Assembly: GCA_020831485.1 (NCBI GenBank)
Contig: JAFIGG010000003.1
Coordinates: forward strand, 62,001 to 126,000
Source of the DNA: Opitutales bacterium
Lineage (GTDB): Bacteria > Verrucomicrobiota > Verrucomicrobiia > Opitutales > Oceanipulchritudinaceae
Direction: 5' to 3'
Length of the DNA: 64,000 nt
In this document: positions 55,101-62,596 of the stretch, in pieces
How positions within the stretch are numbered: position 1 is the stretch's first letter
Layout: each line of letters begins with the position of its first letter
Made by a program: the position numbers and the translations under genes
The notes under the pieces: generated by a model
Database searches by the model: none
The model's input: only the letters and a program-made list of their open reading frames with translations
Told to the model about the DNA's origin: nothing

Positions 55101-55799
55101 ATGAATCACCCAATCGAAATTAACTTCGTCCACCCTTCGGAGGAAGCATTGATGAATCGCTTTCGAGAAGGGAAACCTTTTGCAGAGCTGATTCAGCCGG
55201 TAGTCGAGCTTGCCGAATTTTCGAGCAGTTTACTCGTAGGCTACGCTGGAGGAGGCGAGCTGAGTCGTGAGAGACTGATTCCCTATTTTCACGTGCTTAG
55301 CTCAACCTTGTCACATCATAATCTTAGGGTTTTTGTTGTCGGCAGCCAGTCATGCGAATCGGTAAACGTGGCGACCCTCAGCCTGCTTCGGCTGATAATT
55401 GCCATGGAAGTCCGAGCTACTCTGGTTGAAGGAATAGAGTTGACCGTTTTTCCCGCTGTGGTTGAGGAATGGGCTCAGCCGGCACTACAGGGAGCGGTTT
55501 CCAGAGAGTTTAGGCGACTGAATCCTCACATTCTCATAAACGTCAGCGAAGTGCCGGAGCAAAGGAATAGTGTCTTGTCTATTATTCATCCCAGTAAGGC
55601 CGCAGTGCAGCGTATTCGTGAAGCACTTTTGAAGGTTGTTGCAGAGGGTCTGGTGATCAAGGTTTACGATGATCCTGAGGCCGATGGTTACCCGCTCGAA
55701 TTGGATCTGGAGGTAGGGAGCGAAGGGGGGAGTTTTCAGAGGTCCAAAGAGCTTCGTAACGCAATGCTGATGCTTCTTCACGTATTGAGGAGCGTATAA
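55101..55799 (+). CDS. Unknown protein resembling a degenerate M14 peptidase fold
   Basis: A 232-residue soluble protein with no signal peptide. I do not recognise it as a named family. Reading it against M14/AstE proteins, RVFVVGSQSCESVNVATLSLL (starting at R76) falls where VxxGxHGDExxS would be, GIELTVFPAVV where the xxLPLLNP strand is, and NPHILINVSEVPEQ where xxDLYLSLHED is. If so, zinc ligand H is Q83 (E86 kept), the DLNR segment is lost, and the third histidine is S149: an inactive M14 fold. The alignment is by eye and weak. It lies between the porin and the Rrf2 gene in the sulfate island and has no Shine-Dalgarno. Confidence 0.7.
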   Translation: MNHPIEINFVHPSEEALMNRFREGKPFAELIQPVVELAEFSSSLLVGYAGGGELSRERLIPYFHVLSSTLSHHNLRVFVVGSQSCESVNVATLSLLRLIIAMEVRATLVEGIELTVFPAVVEEWAQPALQGAVSREFRRLNPHILINVSEVPEQRNSVLSIIHPSKAAVQRIREALLKVVAEGLVIKVYDDPEADGYPLELDLEVGSEGGSFQRSKELRNAMLMLLHVLRSV

Positions 55800-55911: not shown

Positions 55912-56469
55912 ATGAAGCTTAGCAAAAAAGCAGAATATGGTTTGCGCGCCCTTATCAATATGGGGATCGCCGAGGAGTTGGGCCGGGATCGGGTGTCGAT
56001 TTCGGAGCTGGCTGCTTGTGACAATCTTCCGCTTAAATTTGTGGAGCAGATTTTAATGCAGCTCAGGGAGGCTGAATACGTGGACTCCAAGCGAGGCAAG
56101 TTTGGCGGATATTTTATCAAGAAGCCAGCTGGAGAGATTCGTATGGGAGACCTGATCCGTTTGCTAGATGGACCGCTTGCGCCTATTTCCTGTGCGAGTC
56201 AAAGTGCCTACCAAAAGTGTTCGTGCGCGGACGAGGCCCACTGCGGCCTGCGAATGCTGATGATCGATGTTCGTAACGCGATGGCTAACATTCTCGATCG
56301 CTATACCCTGGCAGACGTTGTTGAGGTGACGCTGCGAAAGATTCGTCGCGACAATGCAGGACACTTTTTTCTCAAATCCGATCAGGCTCAGGTTGCTTCT
56401 TCGCAGCCCGAGGATCCCGCGGATCCCGCAGATGGCTTTCTGGCAGGTCTAGTTAGCTCCAAGAAATAA
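55912..56469 (+). CDS. Rrf2-family transcriptional regulator
   Basis: A 185-residue protein with the canonical start MKLSKKAEYGLRALINMG, a winged helix (VSISELAACDNLPLKFVEQILMQL as recognition region), and the dimerisation region after LIRLLDGPLAPISC. Cysteines C94, C103, C105 and C111 (Cx8CxCx6C) sit where IscR/NsrR-type proteins bind an Fe-S cluster, but the spacing differs from IscR. CymR, the cysteine regulator of Bacillus, belongs to the same family. It lies next to DUF2292 and the sulfate transporter, so it probably controls this island through the ATAGAG elements. The C-terminal tail (150-185) is acidic and low-complexity. Confidence 0.9.
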   Translation: MKLSKKAEYGLRALINMGIAEELGRDRVSISELAACDNLPLKFVEQILMQLREAEYVDSKRGKFGGYFIKKPAGEIRMGDLIRLLDGPLAPISCASQSAYQKCSCADEAHCGLRMLMIDVRNAMANILDRYTLADVVEVTLRKIRRDNAGHFFLKSDQAQVASSQPEDPADPADGFLAGLVSSKK

Positions 56470-56798: not shown

Positions 56799-57896
56799 AT
56801 GCCTACAAAAAGCATATTCAAAACGGCGTCGAGTGACGGCCCACAACAAAATTCACGCAGCTTAATTCGCAGCGCACTCAACTGGAGTGGCGTTGTCGCA
56901 TTGGCGATTGGGAGCCTGGCCTTCGTGGCCTGCGGAGCTAAAGAAGAAGGCTCCGGAAGCGGTCGAACAATTGAGCTGCTCAATGTTTCCTACGATCCAA
57001 CCCGGGAATTTTACTCGGAATTCAACCAGGCCTTTGCAGCCCATTGGAGTGCAGAGACCGGTGACCGTGTCCGGATACGGCTATCGCACGGAGGCTCCAG
57101 TCGCCAGGCCCGCTACGTCATCGACGGTCTTGAAGCGGATGTAGTCACCCTGGCGCTGGCTGCGGATATTGATGCCCTTGCGGAGCGTGGCTTCCTCCCG
57201 ACAGACTGGCAGAGTCGCTTGCCGGCGAACAGCGCCCCCTATCAATCCACCCTTGCATTTCTAGTGCGGAAGGGAAACCCAAAGAACATTCAAAACTGGG
57301 ACGATCTGATCCGCCCAGGTGTTCAAGTGATCACACCCAATCCAAAAACTTCAGGTGTGGCGCGCTGGAATTATCTGGCGGCATGGGGCTGGGCGTTGAA
57401 CGAATTCGACGGCGATGAGGCCCGGGTTACGGATTATATTCGTCGACTGTTTCGCAATGTGCCGGTTCTGGACACTGGAGCGCGCGGAGCCTCCACAACC
57501 TTTCAGGAGCGCGGTATTGGCGACGTATTGATAAACTGGGAGAATGAGCTTCTCCTGGCTTTGCAGCAGCACGGCGATAAGTTTGAAATCGTTGTTCCTT
57601 CCGTCAGTATTCTTGCTGAACCTACGGTTGCGATCGTGGACCGCAATGTGGACCGCAAAGGTACGCGGGAGGTGGCACAGGCCTATCTGGAGTTTCTCTA
57701 TTCTGACGAAGGTCAGGATATTGCCGGCAAGCACTTCTACCGTCCCAGTAATCCGGAGTTCCTGGCGAAGTATAGTGACCAGTACCCGGATGTGGAGCTG
57801 TTCACTATTGACGATGCGTTTGGTGGATGGGCTCCGGCAACAGAAAAACACTTTCGCGATGGCGGTATCTTCGATCAGATCTACCTGACGGACTGA
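56799..57896 (+). CDS. cysP: Sulfate/thiosulfate-binding lipoprotein of an ABC importer
   Basis: A 365-residue protein. A long basic N-region precedes hydrophobic 31-44 and lipobox FVAC with C45, so it is probably a lipoprotein. The mature part starts [19 protein letters not shown], followed by [37 protein letters not shown] and [16 protein letters not shown], all diagnostic of the CysP/Sbp sulfate-binding family. WxNE ([11 protein letters not shown]) and the C-terminal [15 protein letters not shown] fit as well. It delivers sulfate or thiosulfate to CysTW. The candidate operator at 56,733 lies just upstream. The symbol sbp would fit equally. Confidence 0.92.
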
Positions 57897-57976
57897 TTCA
57901 CTACAACAACCTCGAACACTACCCGGCGGTCCGATCCCGCTTGGAGTGTCAGTATACACTTTAATTGATAAATACA

Positions 57977-58864
57977 ATGGCCATCGCCAGGAACATAATT
58001 GAAGCGAGTTTCCCAACGCCACTGTTTGAGATCCAAGCGGCGGACCCAGGGCTGTGTGTTGGTCGCGTATTGCTCAAGGCAGAGTTTCGTGCGCCCCTGG
58101 GTAATCTTGAAGACCGTTGGGCAAAGGAGCTTGAAGCATCTCGGGTCGGTAATCCGGAATCTCAAAGCACTAATGTGACTTTTGCTCCGGTCGCAGAGGA
58201 GCGCAGTCTGGCCGTGGCATTGGCAGCTTCGGTATTCAATCACAAATATGTGCCGATGTTGACGCGATCACCTAGCCCTTGTTACCAAAAGATTCTGGGA
58301 AGGTTTAGGAAGAAATTCCATGATGGCAATGCCGTTCAGAAAGTTGATGCACCTAAAGTCGAAGAAACGGCCAGCATTTGGGCTAACTACCTTCTGACGG
58401 CGCTCAGTTCCGATGAACTGTCGGGGAAGGAGGGACGGCACTGGAAGTCCCTTGTAGACGAAGTTTTTGACGAGATTAGCCCAGAGAGGGCACACTTCAT
58501 CTTTCCTGTCTTCCCTTTTCTGGACGATCCAGAGGTTATGCTGAAATTGAGAAATGATTTTCCAGACAGTTATTTCAGTTTCGTCTGGTGGCCTCGCAGT
58601 AGGATGGAGAGGCCACCGAAGCTGGAAGCTCCTGAACGCTATGCGATTCAGCAGATCAGCCTCAAAGAGGCACTCCTGGCTTCTGTATGGCTTGCTGAGA
58701 ACCATGGAATTATTGCGGCGGTGCCCACCGGAGCAGTGGTTCATATAGCCCTCCTCTTTGCCCATCAACCGGTTTTCTCTGATGCCACCCTGGTTCCTAT
58801 CGGATGCCACTTTTACGACCGCGAAGAGAATTATAATCCGTATGCCAAAAGGCTGCTGACCTGA
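57977..58864 (+). CDS. Cysteine-synthase-like protein lacking PLP residues (probable pseudoenzyme)
   Basis: About 295 residues from the ATG at 57,977; an in-frame TTG at 57,965 would add four. The length and layout follow O-acetylserine sulfhydrylase (CysK, ~310). SFPTPLFEI aligns with xGNTPLVRL, VLLKAEFRAPLGNLEDRWA with KxExxNPxxSVKDRIA, AHFIFPVFPFLDDP with DxFVAGVGTGGT, and WLAENHGIIAAVPTGAVVHIALLFA with the C-terminal REEGIxxGxSSGAAVAAALxLA. The Schiff-base lysine of SxKDR is E45, the TSGNT loop is VAEER (72-76), and the GTGGT phosphate loop is FPFLDD. It therefore should not bind PLP. It sits between cysP and cysT, so a regulatory or sensing role is inferred. The alignment is by eye. Confidence 0.85.
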   Translation: MAIARNIIEASFPTPLFEIQAADPGLCVGRVLLKAEFRAPLGNLEDRWAKELEASRVGNPESQSTNVTFAPVAEERSLAVALAASVFNHKYVPMLTRSPSPCYQKILGRFRKKFHDGNAVQKVDAPKVEETASIWANYLLTALSSDELSGKEGRHWKSLVDEVFDEISPERAHFIFPVFPFLDDPEVMLKLRNDFPDSYFSFVWWPRSRMERPPKLEAPERYAIQQISLKEALLASVWLAENHGIIAAVPTGAVVHIALLFAHQPVFSDATLVPIGCHFYDREENYNPYAKRLLT

Positions 58865-58951: not shown

Positions 58952-59836
58952 ATGCATTCCGAATCATCAACAAAACCACCGAATTTCGTTGGAAGAGATG
59001 CGGTCAAACGCATCAACCGACGGGTGATACCCGGCTTCGGGTTATCTATGGGCATCACCCTTGCTTATCTAGGACTGCTCGTACTGATACCTCTGGCAGG
59101 TGTTTTCATCCTGACCTCACAAATGTCCTGGGAGGATTTTTGGAGGGTGATTACCTCGCGTCAGGTCGTTGCCTCCTATAAAGTGACCTTTGGCGTTTCG
59201 CTGGCGGCTGCTAGTGCGAACGCGGTTTTTGGACTGCTGGTCGCATGGGTTTTGGTGCGCTATCATTTCCCAGGCCGAAAACTGATCGATGGCATGGTGG
59301 ACTTGCCGTTCGCCTTGCCCACAGCCGTTGCGGGGATCGCCCTGACGGCCCTCTACAATCAGAATGGATGGCTGGGTAAATTCTTTTATGGCATTGGCAT
59401 TGAGACCGCCTATTCCCAGGTCGGTATCTTTATCGCACTGACATTTATCGGCATTCCTTTTGTCGTAAGAACGGTGCAGCCTGTCATAGAGGACCTGGAC
59501 AGCGAAGTGGAAGAGGCGGCTGCCTCATTGGGCGCCAGTCGCCTGCGGACTTGGTTCCGGATTATCCTACCTGTGCTGATTCCGGCGATGTTGACTGGTT
59601 TCGCTCTGGCTTTTGCCCGCGCGGTGGGTGAATACGGGTCGGTTATTTTTATTTCAGGCAACATGCCGTTGAGGACAGAGATCACCCCACTGATCATTGT
59701 GAAATTCCTCGAACAGTACCAATACGCGGAAGCGACTGCCATCGCCTGTGTGATGCTGATCGTTTCCTTTACGCTGTTACTTATTATCAATCTCCTTCAA
59801 CGCTGGACCGAGTCGATTGGCCAACAACGCAACTAG
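58952..59836 (+). CDS. cysT: Sulfate ABC transporter permease CysT (CysU)
   Basis: A 294-residue inner-membrane protein with about six hydrophobic segments. LVRYHFPGRKLIDGMVDLPFALPTAVAGI and the EAA loop EEAAASLGASRLRTWFRIILP (in parts: VDLPFALPTAVAGI; EEAAASLGASRLRTWF) are typical of CysT, as is ARAVGEYGSVIFISGN. A charged, polar N-terminal extension of about 30 residues precedes TM1. The following cysW starts 7 bp after its stop. It forms the channel together with CysW. Confidence 0.92.
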   Translation: MHSESSTKPPNFVGRDAVKRINRRVIPGFGLSMGITLAYLGLLVLIPLAGVFILTSQMSWEDFWRVITSRQVVASYKVTFGVSLAAASANAVFGLLVAWVLVRYHFPGRKLIDGMVDLPFALPTAVAGIALTALYNQNGWLGKFFYGIGIETAYSQVGIFIALTFIGIPFVVRTVQPVIEDLDSEVEEAAASLGASRLRTWFRIILPVLIPAMLTGFALAFARAVGEYGSVIFISGNMPLRTEITPLIIVKFLEQYQYAEATAIACVMLIVSFTLLLIINLLQRWTESIGQQRN

Positions 59837-59843
59837 AATAATC

Positions 59844-60716
59844 ATGGCTTCCATCATTTCACGTTTTCGCCTGGACCCGCTGCCTAAGCAGCAGAGCGCA
59901 ATCAATGAAGCGCGCTGGGTTCGCTATTTGCTCATAGGTATCTCCCTGAGTTTCCTGCTGCTGTTCCTCCTGATACCTCTGGTGTCGGTTTTCTATGAGG
60001 CGCTACGGCAGGGCGCTTCCGTCTTCCTTGCAACCTTTGGCGACCCGGATGCGCAGGCTGCCATCCGCCTGACCTTGACCGTGGCTCTGATCTGCGTGCC
60101 GGTAACAACGCTCTTTGGTGTGGCTGCTGCCTGGACCATTACCAAATTCTCTTTCAGGGGGAAGAGTCTGTTGACCACGCTTATCGATCTGCCGTTTGCG
60201 GTCTCACCAGTCATAGCGGGACTCATCTTTATCCTGATTTTCAGCGGTACACACGGTTGGCTGGGCCCCTGGTTTGAGGACCGTGGTATCCGGATAATCT
60301 TTGCTTTACCAGGCATTACCCTGGCAACGATGTTCATTACCCTGCCGTTTGTGGCCAGAGAGTTGATTCCAATCATGCAGGCCCAGGGGAAGGATGAAGA
60401 GTATGCCGCCTTGACTCTCGGTGCCAACGGCTGGAGGACCTTTTTTCGGGTGACGCTTCCCAATGTAAAGTGGGGGCTGTTCTACGGTCTGATTCTGTGC
60501 AATGCCAGGGCAATGGGCGAATTCGGTGCGGTGGCCGTTGTTTCGGGCAACATAAAAGGCCTCACCAGTACCATGCCGCTCTATATTGAGACGCTCTATT
60601 TCGAATACCAAACCGTCCCGGCCTTTGCGCTGTCTTCTCTGCTTACGCTGTTGGCTCTCCTGACCCTGATCCTGAAAAACATCATCGAATGGAAGGGCAG
60701 TCGGGCCAGGAGCTGA
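59844..60716 (+). CDS. cysW: Sulfate ABC transporter permease CysW
   Basis: About 290 residues from the ATG at 59,844 (MASIISRFRLDP). The open frame extends upstream to 59,817 through the end of cysT, but only via a non-ATG start. About six hydrophobic segments, the CysW motif FRGKSLLTTLIDLPFAVSPV, the coupling loop EEYAALTLGANGWRTFFR and ARAMGEFGAVAVVSGN identify it. It pairs with CysT as the heterodimeric sulfate channel and precedes the ATPase gene by 33 bp. Confidence 0.92.
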   Translation: MASIISRFRLDPLPKQQSAINEARWVRYLLIGISLSFLLLFLLIPLVSVFYEALRQGASVFLATFGDPDAQAAIRLTLTVALICVPVTTLFGVAAAWTITKFSFRGKSLLTTLIDLPFAVSPVIAGLIFILIFSGTHGWLGPWFEDRGIRIIFALPGITLATMFITLPFVARELIPIMQAQGKDEEYAALTLGANGWRTFFRVTLPNVKWGLFYGLILCNARAMGEFGAVAVVSGNIKGLTSTMPLYIETLYFEYQTVPAFALSSLLTLLALLTLILKNIIEWKGSRARS

Positions 60717-60749: not shown

Positions 60750-61829
60750 ATGAGTATTAAAGCCATTCAAATCACTAAATCCTTCGGTAGTTTCAAGGCG
60801 CTGGACAATGTTTCCCTTGAGGTGCCCGATGGAAAACTCGTCTCGCTGCTCGGGCCATCTGGTTCCGGGAAAACAACGCTGCTGCGAATCCTTGCAGGAT
60901 TGGATTTTGCCGATTCAGACAGCGATGGGCAGATTCTTTTTCATGGCCAGGATGTTACCGCTACGCCTGCGGGTAAGCGGGGCGTAGGCTTTGTTTTCCA
61001 ACATTATGCCCTGTTTAAACACATGACGATCGAGGACAATATTGCCTTCGGTCTCAACTCACTCAAGCGTGCCCTGCGACCGGCGAAGGATCAGGTTCGG
61101 GCTCGGGTTAATGAGCTGCTGGACCTGGTTCAACTGGACGGTTTGCAGAAGCGCTATCCAAGCGAACTCTCCGGAGGTCAACGTCAGCGCATTGCCCTTG
61201 CAAGAGCCCTCGCGGTTCGGCCCAAGGTGCTGCTACTGGACGAACCCTTTGGCGCGCTTGATGCCAAGGTGCGCAAGGATTTACGGCGCTGGCTACGAAC
61301 CTTTCAGGAAGAGATCAAGGTCACTACGATATTCGTGACCCACGATCAGGAGGAGGCGCTGGAGCTGGCTGACGAAGTGGTGGTGATGAACAACGCGACC
61401 ATAGAGCAGAAAGGTACTCCTCAGAAAGTCTATGACCGGCCCGTTTCACCTTTTGTTATCGAATTCCTTGGCAATGTTAACCGGTTTACCTCTGGCGTTG
61501 GCGAGATCAAAGACGGTGTCGAACGGGACGTCCTTTATGTCAGGCCTCACGATGTGGAGCTCGAACCGGAAGGTTCCAGTACCCATGAGTACGCGCTTAA
61601 AGCTAAAGTTCAGCATATTTTCTCGGCCGGAAATTATGGACGGGTAACCCTCGAACGCCTTGGCACCCACGAACCTTTTGAAGCAGAGGTTCCTCGTGAA
61701 CGCTTGCGTGAACTGAATCTGGAGCCAGGCACGATTGTGTCGGTGATTTTCCGCCATGTTCGCCTCTTCCCAAAAGGAGAGTTTGTTGAGGCCGACATCC
61801 GCGACGGTGAGCTGGTAGCCAATCGATAG
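60750..61829 (+). CDS. cysA: Sulfate ABC transporter ATPase CysA
   Basis: A 359-residue ABC ATPase. Walker [10 protein letters not shown] is at 35-43, the Q-loop at Q84, the signature LSGGQRQ at 140-146, Walker B VLLLDEP with D164/E165, and the switch H198. The C-terminal regulatory part (about 240-350) begins [13 protein letters not shown] and has the CysA pattern [14 protein letters not shown]. It is the third consecutive cys transporter gene; the HTH-EIIA gene follows after 35 bp, so all are probably co-transcribed. Confidence 0.92.
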
Positions 61830-61864: not shown

Positions 61865-62596
61865 ATGAAAATGAAAACCAAAGATTACCTCAGTCTCGGT
61901 GAAGTTTCGGCCTACCTCGGCTGGTCCACTCGATTTGTCGAAGGGCTCGTCAGGGGCGAAAAGCTGCCTGGGCTCAACATTAATGGAGAGTGGCGGTTTC
62001 GGCGTGAAGAAATCATCGATTGGCTGGATCAAAAGATTCAGACTCTTGATGCGCCAAGAATATCAGAATTGGAACGGCAGTTGGAGGCCGATCTGGTTTC
62101 TGATGGCGTTTTTATCGCACAGAAGCCCCATCGACTGTCTTCACAGCTTTCTCTGGAATCAATTGGCTTGGACCAATCACACTCTAGTAAACGGGCCGTC
62201 CTTGAGCGTTTGGTTGAATTGGCCAACTATTCCGGTAGACTCCTGGATAAGGATCACTTGTTTGCGTCGTTGCTTGAGCGGGAGAGCTTGCATAGCACAG
62301 CGCTGCCGAATGGGATAGCCATCTGCCATCCGAGGAGACCTTTGCCTTCAGCAATCAGCGACTACGTAATTGCTATCCACCGAGCAGCGACACCTGTTCC
62401 GTTCGGATCCGAAGATGGCGAATCAACTCACTTGTTCTTCCTTCTTTGCGCCCCAGATGACCGTACTCATCTACACGGCCTTGCCCGTCTTGCCCGGATC
62501 CTGGATCCTGCAACCATTGAAGCGTTGAAGTCCCGGGAAACATTTTATCCGGAGCAGGTCATTGAAATTATCAAAGAAAGGGAAGCCACCTTATAA
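61865..62596 (+). CDS. Excisionase-type HTH fused to PTS EIIA (PtsN-like) domain
   Basis: A 243-residue protein. Residues 8-58 are a MerR/excisionase-like winged HTH (YLSLGEVSAYLGWSTRFVEG, then NGEWRFRREEIIDWL). Residues about 105-240 match PTS EIIA type 2/PtsN: ALPNGIAICHPR carries the phosphorylatable histidine at H155 (GIAIPH in PtsN), and THLHGLARLARIL matches the second conserved histidine. No EIIB or EIIC is nearby. The gene is the last of the sulfate operon. A phosphorylation-responsive regulator is inferred. The fused architecture is known in Planctomycetota and Verrucomicrobiota; its link to sulfate transport is what is unusual here. Confidence 0.85.
   Translation: MKMKTKDYLSLGEVSAYLGWSTRFVEGLVRGEKLPGLNINGEWRFRREEIIDWLDQKIQTLDAPRISELERQLEADLVSDGVFIAQKPHRLSSQLSLESIGLDQSHSSKRAVLERLVELANYSGRLLDKDHLFASLLERESLHSTALPNGIAICHPRRPLPSAISDYVIAIHRAATPVPFGSEDGESTHLFFLLCAPDDRTHLHGLARLARILDPATIEALKSRETFYPEQVIEIIKEREATL

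Follow-up and report, generated by a model that had tools for sequence, protein, structure and literature searches.

A CysK-derived pseudoenzyme gene between cysP and cysT in a sulfate transport operon of Opitutales

The window analyzed here is a stretch of 64,000 nucleotides from the 3.86-Mb draft genome of an Opitutales bacterium (G000). It holds a sulfate transport operon with the following genes, all on the forward strand: an Rrf2-family regulator with four conserved Cys and without a C-terminal Ile tail (55912 to 56469), a sulfate-binding protein gene of the cysP/sbp type (56799 to 57896), the gene under study (57977 to 58864), the cysT permease (58952 to 59836), the cysW permease (59844 to 60716, with the start taken from the sequence), and the cysA ATPase (60750 to 61829). 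Profile matches within the window confirmed the location given in the initial annotation, between cysP and cysT with the Rrf2 gene upstream of cysP, and the open reading frame was found to be intact as annotated, encoding 295 amino acids. The ATG at 57977 was favored as the start over an upstream TTG at 57965, which is less likely because the one relative found in another genome (G002) aligns from the Met at 57977. Scans for consensus promoters and terminators around the gene gave matches no more numerous than in shuffled sequences. A gene with HTH and PTS EIIA-like domains follows cysA at 61865 to 62596, as it also does in G002 and G004. At 55101 to 55799, the window encodes a protein without a Pfam match and with a weak likeness to an inactive M14-like family (16.1 bits; shuffles, ≤3.2); this region might thus hold another degenerate enzyme relative.

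The protein encoded at 57977 to 58864 matched Pfam PALP (PF00291) in two stretches with an E value of 5.4e-7, at 29.7 bits, under the Pfam cut-off of 35. Against a CysK profile built from related genomes it scored 35.7 bits, while the best of 500 shuffles reached 2.0 bits; against TIGR01136 it scored 23 bits, far from the cut-off of 344. Identity to nearby CysKs was 18 to 24%. The detectable likeness was limited to residues 1 to 95, the N-terminal part (57977 to 58261), and residues 224 to 282, for which hhalign gave a probability of 96.6% against CysK. These latter residues belong to a CysK-like C-terminal part of residues 224 to 295 (58646 to 58861; ISLKEA...GIIAAVPTGAVVHIALL...) that ends with GCxFxxxxNxNP and is partly common to the relative in G002, which itself gave an hhalign probability of 96.8% over its first 61 residues. 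Between the two ends lies an open middle of residues 93 to 222 (58253 to 58642), which scored under many of its own shuffles against the CysK middle, with an hhalign probability of 0.2%, and for which family profile searches returned no match. The initial annotation had described the protein as following CysK along its whole length, and this held for the two ends and failed for the middle. Judged by these comparisons, the protein is a true, very distant CysK relative by descent at both ends; for the middle, position and length suggest the same descent.

An AlphaFold2 model from the single sequence had a pLDDT of 33 and was discarded. When CysK relatives were supplied as the alignment, a CysK-like fold was obtained with a pLDDT of 63 and a pTM of 0.61, a result biased by that alignment, and the model matched CysK structures in the PDB with a Foldseek E value of about 1e-9 and a VIA-align Z score of about 14. 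The structure prediction proposed in the initial annotation thus gave a CysK-like answer in the aligned form only. Because its alignment consisted of CysKs, the model is consistent with a PALP fold rather than independent proof of one.

The residues needed for catalysis were found to be gone. Position 45 was Glu, whereas every CysK of the alignment had the PLP lysine there (LEDR for VKDR), and the TSGNT substrate loop was replaced by VAEER; both changes lie within the alignable N-terminal part, and Glu occupied the lysine position in the G002 relative as well. The GIGAGF segment was missing, and neither GTGGT, SVKDR, nor TSGNT occurred anywhere in the 295 residues, so that no displaced copy of the lysine motif or of the phosphate loop was present. 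Two of the three replacements claimed at the outset, those of the lysine and the TSGNT loop, were therefore borne out at their aligned positions. For GTGGT, the absence from the whole protein was established, and the position of the loop falls in the unalignable middle. Together with the Pfam and profile matches, the lost motifs support the earlier description of a catalytically dead CysK relative. The protein would make no cysteine, and CysK-type binding of PLP or O-acetylserine appears implausible. The same genome has, elsewhere, an intact CysK (L014, with VKDR, TSGNT, and GTGGT) and a CysE, whose gene is cut at the 3′ end by the contig end, and therefore the window gene is not the cysteine synthase of the cell.

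Searches of 373 genomes of the order, 384 of the class, and 289 of the phylum, in overlapping sets, found the pseudoenzyme in the window genome and in one other, G002 (record JAFIGH010000026), an Opitutales metagenome-assembled genome of the same family. A scan of genome contigs returned the G002 record as its sole match, and the weaker matches, where read, were ordinary CysKs with the lysine. The G002 relative has 118 amino acids: it retains residues 1 to 89 and the GCxFxxxxNxNP at the C terminus but none of the middle. It lies directly after cysP, in the same slot, and its stop codon shares bases with the start codon of the following gene (ATGA). Derived residues common to both carriers are APLGNLEDRWA with E45, FPTPL, and GCxFxxxxNxNP. 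A survey of homologues had been suggested for conservation of the Lys-to-Glu change and of the sulfate context; both were kept in G002, and these two genomes were the only carriers. In a survey of cysT regions, close relatives of the carriers were without the gene, and no remnants of it were found after cysP in G004, G005, and G013.

Comparison of the two carriers gave a signal of coding constraint concentrated near the N terminus. Over residues 1 to 49, codon positions 1, 2, and 3 were identical in 37, 37, and 17 of 47 codons (Fisher P = 9e-7), and over residues 1 to 89, in 55, 54, and 28 of 83 codons (P = 1.6e-6). The signal was not significant for residues 50 to 89 (P = 0.056) or the C-terminal 15 residues (P = 0.37), and dS between the two genes was saturated. 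The shared E45 and its neighboring residues indicate that the lysine had already gone in the common ancestor of both carriers, from which it follows that protein-level conservation of the N terminus continued beyond the loss of catalysis. As read from the codon positions, protein-level selection on residues 1 to 49 after loss of the lysine is shown as an average since the lineages split, and is thus compatible with recent decay in one or both of them. The C terminus was probably also kept as protein by selection. A stop-free frame of 295 codons would arise by chance with a probability of about 2e-7. The coding score of the middle varied with the training set and was set aside as evidence: with operon genes it scored as coding, and with a window-wide model it fell below all real segments. 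Over 83 aligned N-terminal residues, the two proteins were 53% identical, compared with 75 to 87% for CysP, CysT, CysA, and Rrf2, a difference that marks the pseudoenzyme as evolving far faster than its neighbors.

To place the gene in its setting, 60 cysT regions of the order were surveyed. Rrf2, a porin, and cysPTWA recurred across them, and the Rrf2-cysPTWA operon was conserved in many Opitutales without the pseudoenzyme gene. An accessory slot lies between cysP and cysT; it was either empty or occupied by M14-family genes (one or two), by a second cysP-like gene (L082, L085, and L124), or by an intact cysK (G054). In G152, an intact cysK adjoins cysT. The window pseudoenzyme gene is one occupant of this slot. 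It could plausibly have arisen from a cysK that occupied this slot; the tree calculated for the parent CysK cannot place it, and has end branches of 10 and 4, far longer than those of any CysK.

Other features of these loci were also recorded. An M14-family pair recurs in the slot (e.g., L081:3368-5909, L085, L090, L121, and L126), with the HG(D/N)E zinc ligands in 20/21 of one member and 0/24 of the other, and so appears by its motifs to be an active/inactive pair within a sulfate operon; the active copy of G002 matches AstE_AspA_cat. Between G002 and G005, identity is 99% for Rrf2 and 76% for cysT. The cysT and cysW of G002 are the closest to those of the window, and among the window, G002, and G287, the last from a different family, these genes are 76 to 87% identical; L075, L076, L073, and L116 are mosaic loci. 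Such mixed identities point to recombination or transfer.

The initial annotation had proposed an O-acetylserine or cysteine sensor tied to the Rrf2 regulator, that is, a dead CysK that still binds one of these ligands and controls the neighboring Rrf2 as CysK controls CymR. The Rrf2 gene in the neighborhood favors this proposal, as does the CymR-CysK system, a precedent for control of an Rrf2-family protein by CysK (PMC12895370). When CysK is docked by CysE, CdiA, or EGL-9, the C-terminal Ile of the partner enters the active site (PMC12895370; PMC5562914), and its deletion or replacement in CysE abolishes binding (PMC12895370). The window Rrf2 ends in LVSSKK, and of the 13 Rrf2 proteins compared from the window family, f4, f11, and f21, none has a C-terminal Ile. 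Because neither the Ile tail nor the pocket for it is present, a CymR-like arrangement is, on the evidence of the sequences, not encoded at the window locus. Moreover, the motifs for the substrate and the partner tail are lost, relatives without the pseudoenzyme gene retain the operon and its Rrf2, and two carriers are all that were found; the sensor proposal is not supported and appears very improbable. In the sister family f14, by comparison, 25 of 26 Rrf2 proteins encoded beside cysPTWA end in [DE]YxI (e.g., EGVLHQLLGDYTI; examples are L083:1974-2576, L090, L121, and L126), resembling the tail with which CysE plugs CysK, and CymR-like docking with a real CysK is plausible there. The four Cys of the window Rrf2 (ISCASQSAYQKCSCADEAHCGLR) are conserved in the relatives compared, and could possibly form a metal or Fe-S site.

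The reading preferred here, with a probability of roughly one-half, is that the protein is a CysK-derived pseudoenzyme that works, or worked until recently, by binding a partner without catalysis. The gene, now in the cysP-cysT slot, descends from a cysK copy; its product had lost the PLP lysine and substrate pocket before the two known carriers diverged, and selection thereafter held the first ~50 residues, and probably the C terminus, as protein. Contact with another protein would be made through surfaces resembling those of CysK at the two ends of the chain; candidate partners are the intact CysK, which the pseudoenzyme would join as a pseudo-subunit, and the other products of this operon. 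If the protein is made and binds such a partner, the binding may tune sulfate uptake or assimilation. Homology at both ends, derived residues shared in the same slot, the codon-position bias, the open frame, the intact CysK and CysE elsewhere in the genome, and the precedents of CYSL-1 and plant TSB-like argue for this reading. Against it stand the limitation to two sequences, the fast evolution, the close relatives without the gene, the weak signal at residues 50 to 89 and the C terminus, and a middle that is undetectable as CysK in one carrier and absent in the other, a pattern that erosion would equally give. A bolder form of the idea appears rather unlikely, namely, that in Opitutales a CysK descendant without cofactor, cut down in one lineage to a mini-protein of 118 residues made of the two enzyme ends, is under selection as a non-catalytic regulator acting on sulfate uptake or on CysK itself.

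Erosion is indeed the main rival, and a strong one, nearly as probable as the preferred reading: the gene may be a relic. In this view, the operon had a cysK copy that lost its function and has been whittled away in frame, since a stop or frameshift would have polar effects on the genes downstream. The state of the middle in the two carriers, the fast evolution and long end branches, the restriction to two genomes, the ATGA overlap in G002, and the way other members of the slot come and go would all be expected of a relic. Selection for an open frame alone, however, would not give the codon-position bias seen in residues 1 to 49 after loss of the lysine, and the middle scores as coding under the operon-gene model, although not under the window-wide one. 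That the middle is instead a new functional segment, conferring a new catalytic or ligand-binding activity, would accord with its open frame and its lack of likeness to CysK; since it is missing from the only relative and has no family match, this appears very improbable.

Non-catalytic PALP-fold proteins are already known. Caenorhabditis elegans CYSL-1 is a CysK relative without biosynthetic activity that acts through EGL-9, and it is reported to retain the site for bisulfide and to accept the EGL-9 C-terminal Ile (PMC5562914). As a non-catalytic CysK relative it is a precedent for the sensor idea, whereas the pocket of the window protein is gone and the neighboring Rrf2 is without the Ile tail. 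Plant TSB-like is a tryptophan synthase beta pseudoenzyme that acts with its partner TSA (PMC12727527); it likewise derives from a biosynthetic paralogue with the PALP fold, and partner action is what we infer for the window protein, but two residues explain most of its change from the parent, whereas the divergence of the window protein is extreme. In Bacillus, sulfur control likewise involves an Rrf2 regulator, CymR, together with CysK, but the partner of CymR is an active CysK, and the window Rrf2 scored 84.7 bits, short of the CymR cut-off of 195. Compared with CysK itself (O-acetylserine sulfhydrylase; PF00291, TIGR01136), the window protein aligns over 95 residues at the N terminus and 60 at the C terminus and its CysK-biased model is PALP-like, while the catalytic motifs are lost and the middle is unrecognizable. 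A search of the literature for a bacterial CysK pseudoenzyme found no description, and within the literature searched this extends to one that has neither cofactor site nor pocket and whose relative is pared down to the two ends; the earlier statement that none was known holds to that extent.

If the protein is functional, a bacterial biosynthetic PLP enzyme would have been turned into a protein without a cofactor site or pocket, and the relative with two ends only would offer a view of the parts that a pseudoenzyme has to retain. If the gene is instead a relic, the locus would record the insertion of a cysK copy into a regulator-transporter operon, followed by its inactivation and trimming. 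In both cases, the survey locates where real CysK-Rrf2 docking is likely to be found, in the sister family with [DE]YxI-tailed Rrf2 proteins.
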